NCBI GenBank assembly: GCA_022821545.1
Contig: JAJEDJ010000049.1
Span: 1 to 64,000, forward strand
DNA from: Caldilineaceae bacterium
Lineage (GTDB): Bacteria; Chloroflexota; Anaerolineae; Caldilineales; Caldilineaceae
Length of the DNA stretch: 64,000 nt
Direction of reading: 5' to 3'
Shown: in pieces, positions 45,154 through 49,752 of the stretch
Layout of the letters: each line of letters begins with the position of its first letter
How positions within the stretch are numbered: position 1 is the stretch's first letter
Translations under genes and position numbers: made by a program
The notes under the pieces: generated by a model
Databases searched by the model: none
Seen by the model: only the letters and a program-made list of their open reading frames with translations
Told to the model about the DNA's origin: nothing

Positions 45154-46428
45154 CTACACGCCGTAGCGCCGCAGGAACCGGTACATCCGCTCGAGGGCGG
45201 CTTCCAGTTTTGACATTTCGACCGGGTACGCGCAGCGCACGTGCCCCTCGCCCCCGGCGCCGAAACCGCTGCCCGGAATTACGGCCACGCGTTCTTCCCG
45301 CAGCAGTTTGTCGGCGAATTCAAACTCGTCCATGCCGGTTCGCCGAACGCTGGGGAAGGCGTAGAATGCGCCCTTCGGCTCGAAACAGTCCAGGCCGATT
45401 TCGTTGAGGCCGTCGACGAAAAACCGGCGCCGTTCGCCATAGCTGGCCACCATCTCCTGCACGGCAGACTCCGCGGCGGGGTCGGTCAGCGCACACATGG
45501 CAGCGGCCTGGCCGCCGGTAGGCGCCGACATGATCAGGTATTGGTGGATACGACGCATCGCGCCGAGCAGTTCCGCAGGCCCGGCGGCATAGCCGATGCG
45601 CCAGCCCGTCATGGCGTAGTCTTTGCTCATTCCGCCCAGGTGTATGGTCCTCTTCGCCATACCCGGCAGTGCAGCGAACATCACGTGTTCGTGATCATCG
45701 TAGACCAGGCGGTCGTAGATTTCGTCGGATATCACGACCAGATCATGCTTTTCCGCGACCTGCGCAATGGCTGAAAGTTCCTCGCGATTCATCACCGCGC
45801 CGGTCGGATTGCAGGGATAGCCGATGAGCAGGACCTTGGTGCGTGGGGTGATAGCATCCTCAACCTGCCCTGGCGTCAGGACGAAATTGTTGTCCGCATA
45901 GGTGGGAATGTCGACAACTGTGCCGCCGGCCAGTATTACGTCGGCGGTGTAGGATACGAAACAGGGCTGCGGAACAAGAACCTCGTCACCCGGATCGAGC
46001 AGTGCCTGCATCGCCAGATACATGGCTTCGCTAACGCCGACGGTGATGAGAACTTCCGAATCGGCATCATAGGCCGGCGCGCCGTAGAGTTTCGTCAACA
46101 TCGAGGCCACGGCTTCCCGCAGCTCCAATGTTCCGGCGTTGGAAGTATAGGAAGTGTTGCCTTGCAGCAGGCTGTCCGACCCGGCGTCGAGAACCGGTTT
46201 CGGAGTTACATAATCGGGCTCGCCGATTCCCAGGCTTATCACGTCATCCATGGTCGTGGCGAGATCGAAAAAGCGTCGAATCGGCGAGGGCGCAACGCGC
46301 TGCACGCGGCTGCTCAGCCGGCTCTCCAGCGAACGTCGCAGACCGGCGGAAGGAGTTACCTTTTCGTCACTTGAACTGGACCGCAGGGCGGTCGGGGCTT
46401 CAGGAGAGTTCATAAGTATTGTATTCAT
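45154..46428 (-). CDS. Class I/II PLP-dependent aminotransferase
   Basis: A 424-residue aspartate-aminotransferase-fold enzyme. ISLGIGEPDYVTPKPV near residue 64, TSNAGTLELREAVA, GYPCNPTGAV (cofactor contact), VVISDEIYDRLVYD and the Schiff-base region SKDYAMTGWRIGY are present. The final MYRFLRRYGV follows the substrate carboxylate-binding Arg in VRCAYP. It is most like the PatA/MalY-type aromatic or aspartate aminotransferases. About 45 N-terminal residues precede the usual start of the fold. ATGs at 46428 and 46413 are both possible. Confidence 0.88.
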   Translation of the reverse strand: MNTILMNSPEAPTALRSSSSDEKVTPSAGLRRSLESRLSSRVQRVAPSPIRRFFDLATTMDDVISLGIGEPDYVTPKPVLDAGSDSLLQGNTSYTSNAGTLELREAVASMLTKLYGAPAYDADSEVLITVGVSEAMYLAMQALLDPGDEVLVPQPCFVSYTADVILAGGTVVDIPTYADNNFVLTPGQVEDAITPRTKVLLIGYPCNPTGAVMNREELSAIAQVAEKHDLVVISDEIYDRLVYDDHEHVMFAALPGMAKRTIHLGGMSKDYAMTGWRIGYAAGPAELLGAMRRIHQYLIMSAPTGGQAAAMCALTDPAAESAVQEMVASYGERRRFFVDGLNEIGLDCFEPKGAFYAFPSVRRTGMDEFEFADKLLREERVAVIPGSGFGAGGEGHVRCAYPVEMSKLEAALERMYRFLRRYGV

Positions 46429-46462: not shown

Positions 46463-46693
46463 GGCCGGGGCCGGCCGCTTCGGTACTACGGGAACAACCT
46501 GGAGGGTCCGGAAATCGCAGTTCCGGGAAGAAGCCTTTGCAGCCGATTCCACAACGGTCGGCGACTTAACCGAACCGTTGCCGGCAAAATGCACCGGCTG
46601 CGCCCCGAAAATGCTCGGAGCCATGCGGCAGCCGGATCGATCCCCGCGCCGCAGATTCTGTACTCTCTGGGTACGTCATTACGAAAGCAATAA

Positions 46694-48205
46694 TCACAGC
46701 TCCGGTCTCCGCAGACGCCATTCCGTACTCTGTTCGTAGGCGTGGGCAGCCCGCAGTATCTTCTCTTCGCCCAGTGAAGGGCCGAGCAGCTGCAGTCCGA
46801 TCGGAAGTCCTCCGTCATCGAATCCGCAGGGGATGCTGATTCCGCAAAGGCCGGCCAGATTAGCGCTGGTGGTGAATATGTCGGTCAAAATCATCGCCAG
46901 CGGGTCGTCCACTTTTTCGCCGATGCGGAACGCCGTGGTCGGCGAGGTCGGCGAGAGAATGACGTCCACGTCGGTAAAGGCGTTGTCGAAGTCCTGCTTG
47001 ATCAGCGTGCGAACTTGCTGGGCTTTGAGATAGTAAGCGTCGTAGTAGCCGGCGCTCAGGGCATAGGTCCCCAGCATAATGCGCCGCTTCACCTCCGAAC
47101 CGAATCCGGCGCCCCGTGTCTGGCGGAAGTGGTCAAAAACCGTGTCGCCATCGACGCTGAGGCCGAAGCGAATGCCATCAAACCGCGCCAGGTTTGCGCT
47201 GGCCTCGGCGGTTACGACCAGGTAGTAGACCGGCAAGGCCAGCTCCGTGTTGGGCAGGTGGATCGGTACGGTCTCCGCCCCGAGCGAAGCGAACTGCTCG
47301 ATGGAAGCGCGGACCGCTGCCTCGACCTCGGGCTGGATGCCTTCGACGAAATACTCGTGGGGAATGCCGATCCGCATCCCTGAGATCTCTCCGGTCAAGG
47401 CCGCCGAAAAGTCGGGCACGTCCACCGGCATTGTCGTGCTATCGTACGGGTCGACACCGGCAACTGCTTCGAGCAGCAGGGCGGCGTCGGCCACTGACTT
47501 GGTAATCGGCCCGATCTGGTCCAGGCTGCTGCCGTACGCGATGAGCCCATAGCGGCTGACGCGGCCGTACGAGGGCTTCAACCCGACAATGCCGCAAAAC
47601 GCAGCCGGCTGCCGTACACTGCCTCCGGTATCGGTTCCCAGTGCAGCCGGCGCTTCGTCGGCAGCCACTGCGGCCGCAGAGCCTCCGCTGCTGCCGCCTG
47701 GGACGCGTTCCAGGTCCCAGGGATTTCGCGTGGGGCCATAGCCGCTGTTCTCCGTACTCGACCCCATCGCAAACTCGTCGGTGTTGGTCTTCCCCAGTAC
47801 TATCGTTCCAGCCGCCTTCAGCTTGTTCACGGCGGTAGCGGAATAGGGCGGAACAAAACCCTCCAGAATCCGGCTGCCGGCGGTCGTCTCGATCCCGCTT
47901 GTCATCAGCACGTCCTTGATGGCCAGCGGAATGCCCAAGAGGGGACGGCTGTCCCCGTCGGCACGCGCGCGGTCCGCCCCGGATGCCGCTTCGAGCGCCT
48001 CAGCGGGTGTCGTGCGCAAGAATGCATGCAGCGCTCCGTCTAGCCGCTCGATCCGCTCGAGGAACGCCTTCGTCAGATCGACGGAGGTAAAGCGGCCAGC
48101 CGCCAGTCCGGCACTGGCTTCGGCCACCCCAAGGGAAGTTAAATGTTTTGTCGAATTCTGGCTGCCCATCACCCTTGCCGCGCTTTCCGTCTGAGACCTG
48201 TTCAC
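46694..48205 (-). CDS. gatA: Aspartyl/glutamyl-tRNA(Asn/Gln) amidotransferase subunit A
   Basis: A 503-residue amidase-family subunit of GatCAB, which converts misacylated Glu-tRNA(Gln) or Asp-tRNA(Asn) to the amide form. [10 protein letters not shown] near residue 85 has the catalytic-triad Lys, and [17 protein letters not shown] followed by [14 protein letters not shown] contains the cis-Ser and nucleophilic Ser. [14 protein letters not shown] and [10 protein letters not shown] are diagnostic for GatA. The start is uncertain: GTG at 48205 has a GGAAG site about 8 bases upstream, ATG at 48169 gives 491 residues, and a TTG frame at 48253 would overlap gatC. It follows gatC by 28 bp. gatB is not in the window. 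Confidence 0.92.
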
Positions 48206-48233
48206 GCCTGCTTCCGAGCCTTCCCGCTGTCCC

Positions 48234-48533
48234 CTACGCCCCCGATTCGTCAAACACGGCGATTACCCGAAAATAACCGCCGTCGGTATCGGGAGCATTG
48301 TCGACTGCCTGATCGTTTGACAGACTATCCCGCGACGCGTCGTCTGCCAGTACATTGCTGAGCGGCAGTACCTGGGGCGTTGGGGGTACGGCGCTTGTAT
48401 CCACAGACTGGATCTGCTGAGCATATGCCAGAATCTGATCGAGCTGCCCGGCATATTCGTCAAGCTCGGCGTCGCTCAATTGCAGCTTTGCCAGTTCAGC
48501 GACATGCTGAACCTCATCCTTCGTCAGTTTCAC
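48234..48533 (-). CDS. gatC: Aspartyl/glutamyl-tRNA amidotransferase subunit C
   Basis: A 99-residue GatC, the small subunit that wraps around GatA and stabilises the GatCAB complex. [28 protein letters not shown] (spanning about residues 8-35) is the family core, followed by [17 protein letters not shown] and the C-terminal [11 protein letters not shown]. The GTG start at 48533 follows GAGG by about 6 bases. It is first gene of the gatCA unit and begins only about 40 bases after the leader terminator, so its expression should depend on read-through. Confidence 0.9.
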
Positions 48534-48573: not shown

Positions 48574-48604
48574 AAAAAAACGCCGTGGTATCAGTCCACG
48601 GCGC
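48574..48604 (-). terminator. Intrinsic terminator in the gatCA leader
   Basis: On the minus strand ccgtgg-type arms pair: the sequence complementary to 48596-48603 (cgccgtgg) with that complementary to 48581-48588 (ccacggcg), loop of 7, followed by seven Ts (48580-48574). It lies upstream of gatC in the direction of transcription, the position of an attenuator. Confidence 0.82.
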
Positions 48605-48673
48605 ATTCCTGCGTTCCCCCGGCGCCGTGGCTCTCCGTCAGTGCCTACGGCGCAGTGTAAACAGCGTTACCTG

Positions 48674-48763
48674 CTACCGCAGCACGCGCGCTGCTGCGCA
48701 CGCTGCTGCACAGTTAGCTATTGTAGGTGAAAAATCCATCTGCCTGGGAATTCCTGATTGCAT
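48674..48763 (-). other. Possible leaderless leader-peptide frame in the gatCA leader
   Basis: A 29-codon frame begins with ATG at 48763, which is also the base predicted as transcript +1, and ends with TAG at 48676-48674. It contains six Ala codons in two runs of three (GCA GCA GCG and GCA GCA GCG, 48709-48689). A second in-frame ATG is at 48739. The Ala codons coincide with a GC-rich hairpin, so the run may simply reflect RNA structure. Confidence 0.25.
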
Positions 48764-48769
48764 GCCCAA

Positions 48770-48798
48770 AGTATAGTATGTGTGTCAGAAAGTGTCAA
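48770..48798 (-). promoter_or_regulatory. Near-consensus sigma70-type promoter for the gatCA leader
   Basis: On the minus strand TTGACA (48798-48793) is followed after exactly 17 bases by TATACT (48775-48770). The predicted transcript start is at or next to 48763, 230 bases before the gatC start. Confidence 0.75.
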
Positions 48799-48900: not shown

Positions 48901-49752
48901 ATGGGGAATCCACAGACGCAGGAGCAGATTTGCGAGGCGCTGCGTGCGCTCGGACTGCCGAGCGGCGCCATCGTCTTCGTGCATAGCTCGATGAGCAGCA
49001 TCGGCTACGTTGAAGGCGGTGCCGATGCCCTGGTCGATGCGTTTCTACAGGTCCTCGGCCCGGCCGGTACACTTTCCGTGCCAACTTTCACTTTTTCTCA
49101 CTCCGGAAAGACCGACCCTGTCTTCAATCCCGCGAGCGATCCTTCGGAGATGGGCCGCCTGACCGAGGAGACCCGAACGCGGCCGGGAGCGCAGAGAAGC
49201 TGCCATCTGCTTCACTCGGTCGCCGCCCTCGGAGCGCAGGCAACCGAAATAACTGCCAGCCACGGGCCGTCAGCCTGGGCGAAAGACGGCCCATTCTGGA
49301 AGCTCCATGAGTTGGACGCCTACATTCTGTTGTTGGGCGTGCCCTACCTCCGCTGCACTTTCATTCACTTGTTGGAACTGCTGGTAGACGTCCCCTACCG
49401 ACGCTGGCGCGAAGTAGAGGCCCACGTCCGCGCCCCGGACGGCTCGCATCGACCGCTTCGGACTCTGGCCTTCAGCCCAAAGCCGGACTTTATCGGCAAC
49501 GACTTCAACAGGCTCGGGACAATGTTGGAAGATCGAGGGCTTGTAATGGCAGGAAGTGTGGGCAATGCGGTGACCCGGCTCTTTCGCGCCAGAGATGCGT
49601 TCGAGATTGGCCTGGCGCAATATCGAATCGACCCGGACATCTTTCTCATGAAGGGGCAGAAATATACACAGCTGCGATGCGGCGTTCTGACTGAAGATCT
49701 GCACAATGAGAAATGGGTGCTGGACCCTGCGCAAATCTACCGGAGCCAGTGA
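48901..49752 (+). CDS. AAC(3)-family aminoglycoside N-acetyltransferase-like protein
   Basis: A 283-residue antibiotic-NAT-family acetyltransferase using acetyl-CoA. VFVHSSMSSIGYVEGGADALVDAFL near residue 25, TLSVPTFTFSHSGK near 57, RSCHLLHSVAALG near 98, LGVPYLRCTFIHLLE near 142 and the C-terminal KGQKYTQLRCG fit the family. Chromosomal members are widespread and many do not confer aminoglycoside resistance. The gene is alone under its own promoter, and no mobile element is nearby, so recent acquisition is not indicated. Confidence 0.88.
   Translation: MGNPQTQEQICEALRALGLPSGAIVFVHSSMSSIGYVEGGADALVDAFLQVLGPAGTLSVPTFTFSHSGKTDPVFNPASDPSEMGRLTEETRTRPGAQRSCHLLHSVAALGAQATEITASHGPSAWAKDGPFWKLHELDAYILLLGVPYLRCTFIHLLELLVDVPYRRWREVEAHVRAPDGSHRPLRTLAFSPKPDFIGNDFNRLGTMLEDRGLVMAGSVGNAVTRLFRARDAFEIGLAQYRIDPDIFLMKGQKYTQLRCGVLTEDLHNEKWVLDPAQIYRSQ

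Follow-up and report, generated by a model that had tools for sequence, protein, structure and literature searches.

In the trp- and his-type attenuators of E. coli and Salmonella, a leader peptide contains runs of control codons, the leader transcript can adopt alternative nested hairpins, and the stop codon is placed so that a ribosome finishing the peptide masks the antiterminator arm. In Streptomyces lividans, alaL encodes the leader peptide MNVIGRNIFATARATSSPVAAA upstream of alaS, an arrangement that is reported as a type new to bacteria (PMC8079986). Leaderless leader ORFs are known from trpL of Sinorhizobium meliloti (PMC7298713) and from S. lividans (PMC8079986).

We analyzed the region upstream of gatC in a contig of an uncultured Caldilineaceae bacterium (Chloroflexota), of which the whole stretch of 64,000 nucleotides is referred to as the window. 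Here, translation of a tiny alanine-rich leader peptide appears to decide the transcription of the gatCA operon, and from the comparative sequence analysis described below we estimate a probability of roughly 0.8 that this leader attenuates transcription through the ribosome, using alanine control codons. The features of the locus are collected in Table 1.

Table 1. Features of the gatC leader and its downstream genes, with positions in the window
Feature	Coordinates	Strand	Details
Sigma-70 type promoter of the leader, TTGACA-17-TATACT	48770..48798	-	11 of 12 consensus matches
Predicted leader ORF MQSGIPRQMDFSPTIANCAAACAAARVLR, 29 codons plus UAG	48674..48763	-	ATG at 48763; UAG at 48676-48674
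Alanine control codons GCA GCA GCG TGC GCA GCA GCG	48689..48709	-	Codons 19-25 of the leader ORF
Segment Y, GTGCTGCGG (codons V-L-R)	48677..48685	-	Antiterminator 5' arm; directly before the stop codon; pairs with A
Small hairpin GTAACGCTGTTTAC	48657..48670	-	After the leader-ORF stop; different sequence with pairing retained in L012 and L017
Segment A, GCGCCGTAGGCAC	48641..48653	-	Partner of Y or B
Segment B, GCCACGGCGC	48622..48631	-	Partner of A or C
Segment C, GCGCCGTGG	48596..48604	-	Partner of B or D
Segment D plus U7, terminator 3' arm and tail	48574..48588	-	D at 48588-48581
Intrinsic terminator	48574..48604	-	Hairpin 48604-48580, U7 tail to 48574
gatC, first structural gene	48234..48533	-	GTG start at 48533; TIGR00135, 78.6 bits (cut-off 47.1)
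gatA	46694..48253	-	ORF as listed; TIGR00132, 600 bits (cut-off 481)
Class I aminotransferase, third gene	45154..46428	-	Best NCBIfam match PRK07682, 485.6 bits (under the cut-off, 620)

The original prediction had described a near-consensus promoter, a leader of about 190 nt and a terminator 41 nt before gatC, and our promoter and terminator scan confirmed all three: an intrinsic terminator precedes the first structural gene at exactly this distance. Within the 3 kb scanned, two promoter-like sites were found versus 0.7 expected from shuffling, and the TTGAC and TAT..[CT]T boxes are kept in all 17 members of the genus and also in most other genera. The same scan gave two terminators versus 2.6 expected. 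Terminators as such are thus not rarer than chance, so the real evidence for this one is its conservation. Secondary-structure folding, which had been suggested as a check, gave -81.8 kcal/mol for the 191-nt leader (z = -3.8), better than all 200 shuffles. A divergent gene for an AAC(3)-like N-acetyltransferase adjoins the leader (48901-49752, plus strand), with all its NCBIfam AAC_3 matches below the cut-off; many loci of the genus carry it, others do not, and none was found at loci from other genera.

The four alternately complementary segments of the prediction, A to D, lie where they had been described. Together with a fifth segment, Y, they can form two exclusive states, in which Y:A and B:C make up the antiterminator, and A:B and C:D the terminator. 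The sequence of Y varies across genera (GUGCUGCGG, GUGCUCCGG, GUGUCCCGG, GUGCCCCGG, GCGUCCCGG, GUGUUGCGG) and A changes in step, so that eight or nine of the nine Y:A pairs are formed in 41 of 41 leaders, with compensatory changes. When A was permuted among 15 genera, the observed Y:A score was reached in none of 20000 trials. We calculated covariation statistics on alignment A4, where 94.6% of antiterminator pairs and 96.7% of terminator pairs are formed, seven pairs in each structure have changed on both sides, and none of 500 shuffles reaches the covariation score of either; sliding of the partners, used as a control on the same alignment, abolishes both. The leader thus conserves a terminator and an antiterminator that exclude each other, and covariation in both of two incompatible structures is what one would expect of a switch. 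This supports the earlier proposal that transcription attenuation controls gatCA.

The energies of the individual helices in the window are -8.8 (Y:A), -17.0 (A:B), -17.5 (B:C) and -16.2 kcal/mol (C:D), and in 17 of the 18 leaders compared the terminator state is the more stable of the two (in the window -33.2 kcal/mol, versus -26.3 for the antiterminator). The metastable antiterminator would have to form in the order of transcription, and our model relies on that order, on which the antiterminator of trp-type attenuators likewise depends. Equilibrium folding showed no clean switching between the states, and the similarity of the tandem hairpins makes it uninformative as a test of the switch. 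Many other genera also have a U-run after A:B and so carry two terminators in tandem; in nearly all genera Y is directly followed by the stop codon. We also considered a universal X:Y protector hairpin and rejected it, since such a hairpin is clear only in the genus of the window.

The original prediction saw the attenuator but missed both Y and the short ORF that ends directly after it, and hence could not name the sensor, which would be the translating ribosome. This predicted ORF lies between the promoter and the terminator. In the genus of the window its ATG, frame, length (28-29 codons, with only 3-nt indels) and UAG are kept in 17 of 17 species, and other genera of the family have an Ala-rich ORF ending at Y. 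The ATG of the window follows the -10 box by 6 nt, and its ORF is probably read from a leaderless mRNA; the distance is at most 11 nt in 31 of 39 leaders. In L046, L048, L057, L075, L077, L079 and L082 the first in-frame ATG lies 26-90 nt after the -10 box and the ORF is not leaderless, so the arrangement does not need a leaderless start.

Codon content was counted over the 14 codons before the last three, which amounts to 210 codons in 15 genera. Alanine accounts for 103 of them (49%), versus 42 +/- 5.3 in dinucleotide shuffles, and none of 5000 shuffles is as high, a significance that is nominal and too strong given the shared ancestry of the 15 genera. The counts of GCN in the three frames, with the ORF frame first, are 103, 22 and 6. 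All four synonymous codons are used (GCA 40, GCC 30, GCT 22, GCG 11), which argues that the amino acid rather than a nucleotide string is conserved. In the same shuffles 11.2 glutamine codons were expected and 4 are seen, and 8 asparagine codons, present in 7 of the 15 genera, compare with 3.0 expected. Control codons for these two amino acids were therefore rejected, glutamine being below the shuffle mean and asparagine only slightly above it. The earlier proposal that the leader senses charged tRNA was thus right in kind, but its suggestion of Gln or Asn supply is not supported; the tRNA sensed is most probably Ala-tRNA. In 15 of 15 genera a distance of at least 12 nt separates the over-represented alanine codons from Y downstream, and a ribosome stalled on them would leave the antiterminator arm exposed.

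Since the stop codon abuts Y and the alanine codons lie this far upstream, a ribosome finishing the peptide would mask Y and a stalled one would free it. In the model that we propose, RNA polymerase would begin transcription at the leader ATG or immediately beside it, and the leaderless or nearly leaderless mRNA would be taken up by a ribosome. When Ala-tRNA is plentiful, this ribosome would pass the alanine codons and reach the stop, and with Y masked the A:B and C:D helices would form and transcription would stop 41 nt short of gatC. If Ala-tRNA runs short, the ribosome would stall on the alanine codons, at least 12 nt short of Y; Y would then pair with A, and B with C, so that no terminator forms and gatC, gatA and the aminotransferase gene are transcribed. 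In genera with a U-run after A:B, two terminators in tandem would be governed by a single ribosome position.

Each of the 17 species of the genus carries the leader (the 16 relatives are 69-85% identical), and other genera of the family, while too divergent for a good BLAST match, share the same anatomy of a promoter, a short Ala-rich ORF and two hairpins. A covariance search across relatives had been recommended with the prediction. Our covariance model R1, built from 23 leaders, was searched against 46 Caldilineaceae genomes. It matches in 41, each time at a single place located 5' of gatC, and the pairings covary; the few second matches come from the opposite strand at this locus. Among the five negative genomes, gatC was not found in two (G020, G033), the contig ends near gatC in one (G043), and the leader has decayed in two (G028, G038). 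The decayed leaders, L081 in G028 and L076 in G038, retain the promoter and a single terminator hairpin and have lost the Ala-rich ORF. No convincing second copy was detected in the genome of the window, and none elsewhere in the family genomes using R1. In the other families of the class no such leader was found before gatC, where many genes have a TATAAT-like box nearby and others have coding sequence up to gatC; an ancient origin within the class was rejected for this reason. A search of Rfam 15 gave no match at the gathering score, and the T-box covariance model gave none at its gathering threshold or at E-values up to 5. A T-box or known riboswitch is therefore rejected, in line with the prediction, which had recognised neither.

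Two look-alike attenuators were observed in other families of the class, L208 (G092:C668:4778-4909, minus strand) and L210 (G071:C414:3430-3507, plus strand). Both have a promoter, a Shine-Dalgarno sequence, a leader ORF (MRTAMFIATALRLRDNSGDLLLPCRSAPFE and MEHVVLAASGPALLTGGSAARVPRRSAPIRC, respectively) and tandem terminators, and the two peptides have RSAP in common near the end. L208 precedes an ABC transporter, and L210 an ORF of no identified family.

Wherever a family locus extends far enough to be read through to the third gene, the order gatC-gatA-aminotransferase is conserved. The original prediction had taken gatCA as the whole target, but the aminotransferase follows in every genus with a readable locus. 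The true start of gatA is probably an ATG near 48169. Between gatA and the aminotransferase gene no minus-strand terminator or promoter was found in the window, and we predict that the three genes are co-transcribed; a point against the model is that the gap exceeds 500 nt in some genera. The solved chains closest to the aminotransferase in sequence are 1dju and 1gd9 (aromatic and aspartate aminotransferases). Its best model, PRK07682, presumably takes in YugH (AlaT) of B. subtilis. That enzyme is reported to be the major alanine-forming transaminase of this species (PMC12893347). No alanine dehydrogenase (TIGR00518) above the cut-off was found in the 17 genomes of the genus or in the four of g16.

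The control codons specify alanine, the third gene encodes an aminotransferase that matches below the family cut-off, and gatCA does not belong to an alanine pathway; the connection of gatCA with alanine is indirect. Because the aminotransferase follows gatC and gatA in every genus with a readable locus, the leader most likely serves end-product control of alanine synthesis, with the aminotransferase predicted to be alanine-forming. Control of the whole GatCAB complex was rejected, since gatB lacks this leader, and so was an alanine regulon that takes in alaS: none of 20 regions upstream of alaS has an Ala-rich ORF (in L183 the stretch lay inside coding sequence).

A second conserved structured RNA was observed in the gap between gatA and the aminotransferase gene (window positions 46528-46604, minus strand), with the core GCCGGCAAC-stem-GTTGTGNAATCGGC. 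Model R2, in which only 5 pairs are modelled, finds it as a single copy in 39 of 46 family genomes, in this same gap where it could be read; it is absent from g16 and essentially absent outside the family. It has no Rfam match, its stem shows compensatory changes, and we consider it a candidate cis-regulator of the aminotransferase. Tentatively, a single Ala-tRNA sensor may link the supply of alanine, and thus of amino nitrogen, with the indirect Gln/Asn-tRNA pathway as well as with an alanine-forming transaminase, through a cascade of ribosome positions that in many genera would act on two tandem terminators at once, the gap RNA adding a further layer.

Several other readings of the leader were weighed. 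The same ribosome-mediated switch might sense, through its alanine run, drugs of the chloramphenicol/oxazolidinone type that bind the peptidyl-transferase centre, or general translation stress, instead of Ala-tRNA. Chloramphenicol and linezolid arrest translation best with alanine, from any codon, at the penultimate position of the nascent chain (PMC8987054), which would make poly-alanine an ideal trap for such drugs, and the look-alike attenuators precede an ABC transporter (G092) and an unclassified ORF (G071). However, the genes downstream of the family leader are gatC, gatA and the aminotransferase in every readable genus, not resistance genes, and the AAC(3)-like gene, which is divergent, did not turn up at loci from other genera, so we regard drug sensing as unlikely. 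It is less probable still that a ligand or an RNA-binding protein controls the attenuator independently of translation, with the ORF being incidental. The strongly conserved RNA structure and the small extra hairpin after the stop would fit such control, but in 15 genera the frame, the alanine content with its synonymous drift and the position of the stop are under selection, Y lies inside the ORF, and Rfam has no match.

Marginally less credible again is the view that the alanine codons are a by-product of RNA structure, GCAGC repeats pairing with Y, and that the leader reports general translation. In the genus of the window GCAGCA is indeed complementary to the TGCTGC of Y; against this, g16 keeps GCC GCG GCA GCC GCC despite a different Y, and all four alanine codons are used. 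The end of the peptide is its most conserved part within the genus, which might point to nascent-peptide arrest of the TnaC type at the V-(L/S/P)-R-stop end in response to a small molecule. This conservation is explained by Y:A base pairing, however, and the residues vary with compensation in A (one site has Leu, Ser or Pro, and L047 has Trp in place of Arg). Moreover, holding a ribosome at the stop would keep Y masked, which favours termination, and to this reading we give the lowest weight.

Our literature search, which covered the open literature, returned no description of gatCA attenuation, found alanine control codons only in S. lividans alaL and in a reporter with an Ala-substituted trpL, and gave no trp/his-type attenuator described for Chloroflexota. 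If our reading is true, alanine joins the amino acids controlled by attenuation of this type, with covariation across the family in support, and the type reaches a phylum where we found no case in the literature. The reading also suggests that tRNA amidotransferase subunits can come under alanine control, and it predicts that the aminotransferase forms alanine.

Like T-box riboswitches, the leader would read tRNA charging through the choice between a terminator and an antiterminator; those bind tRNA directly and have no ORF, and the leader has no T-box match. With S. meliloti trpL, whose attenuator releases the short RNA rnTrpL, it would share an ORF starting at the transcription start, but trpL has Trp codons, targets trpE and belongs to Alphaproteobacteria (PMC7298713). 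The alanine-dependent leader peptide of S. lividans alaL resembles it by description; alaL comes from another phylum and a single genome, the available part of the report does not describe covariation, and its target is alaS, which has no leader in Caldilineaceae (PMC8079986). As the defining anatomical features of the trp/his-type attenuators are present, the leader looks, from its sequence, like a variant of ribosome-mediated attenuation. It differs in its alanine control codons, its mostly leaderless or nearly leaderless mRNA and the two tandem terminators of many genera, and what appears new is alanine sensing and the control of gatCA, together with an aminotransferase, in Chloroflexota.
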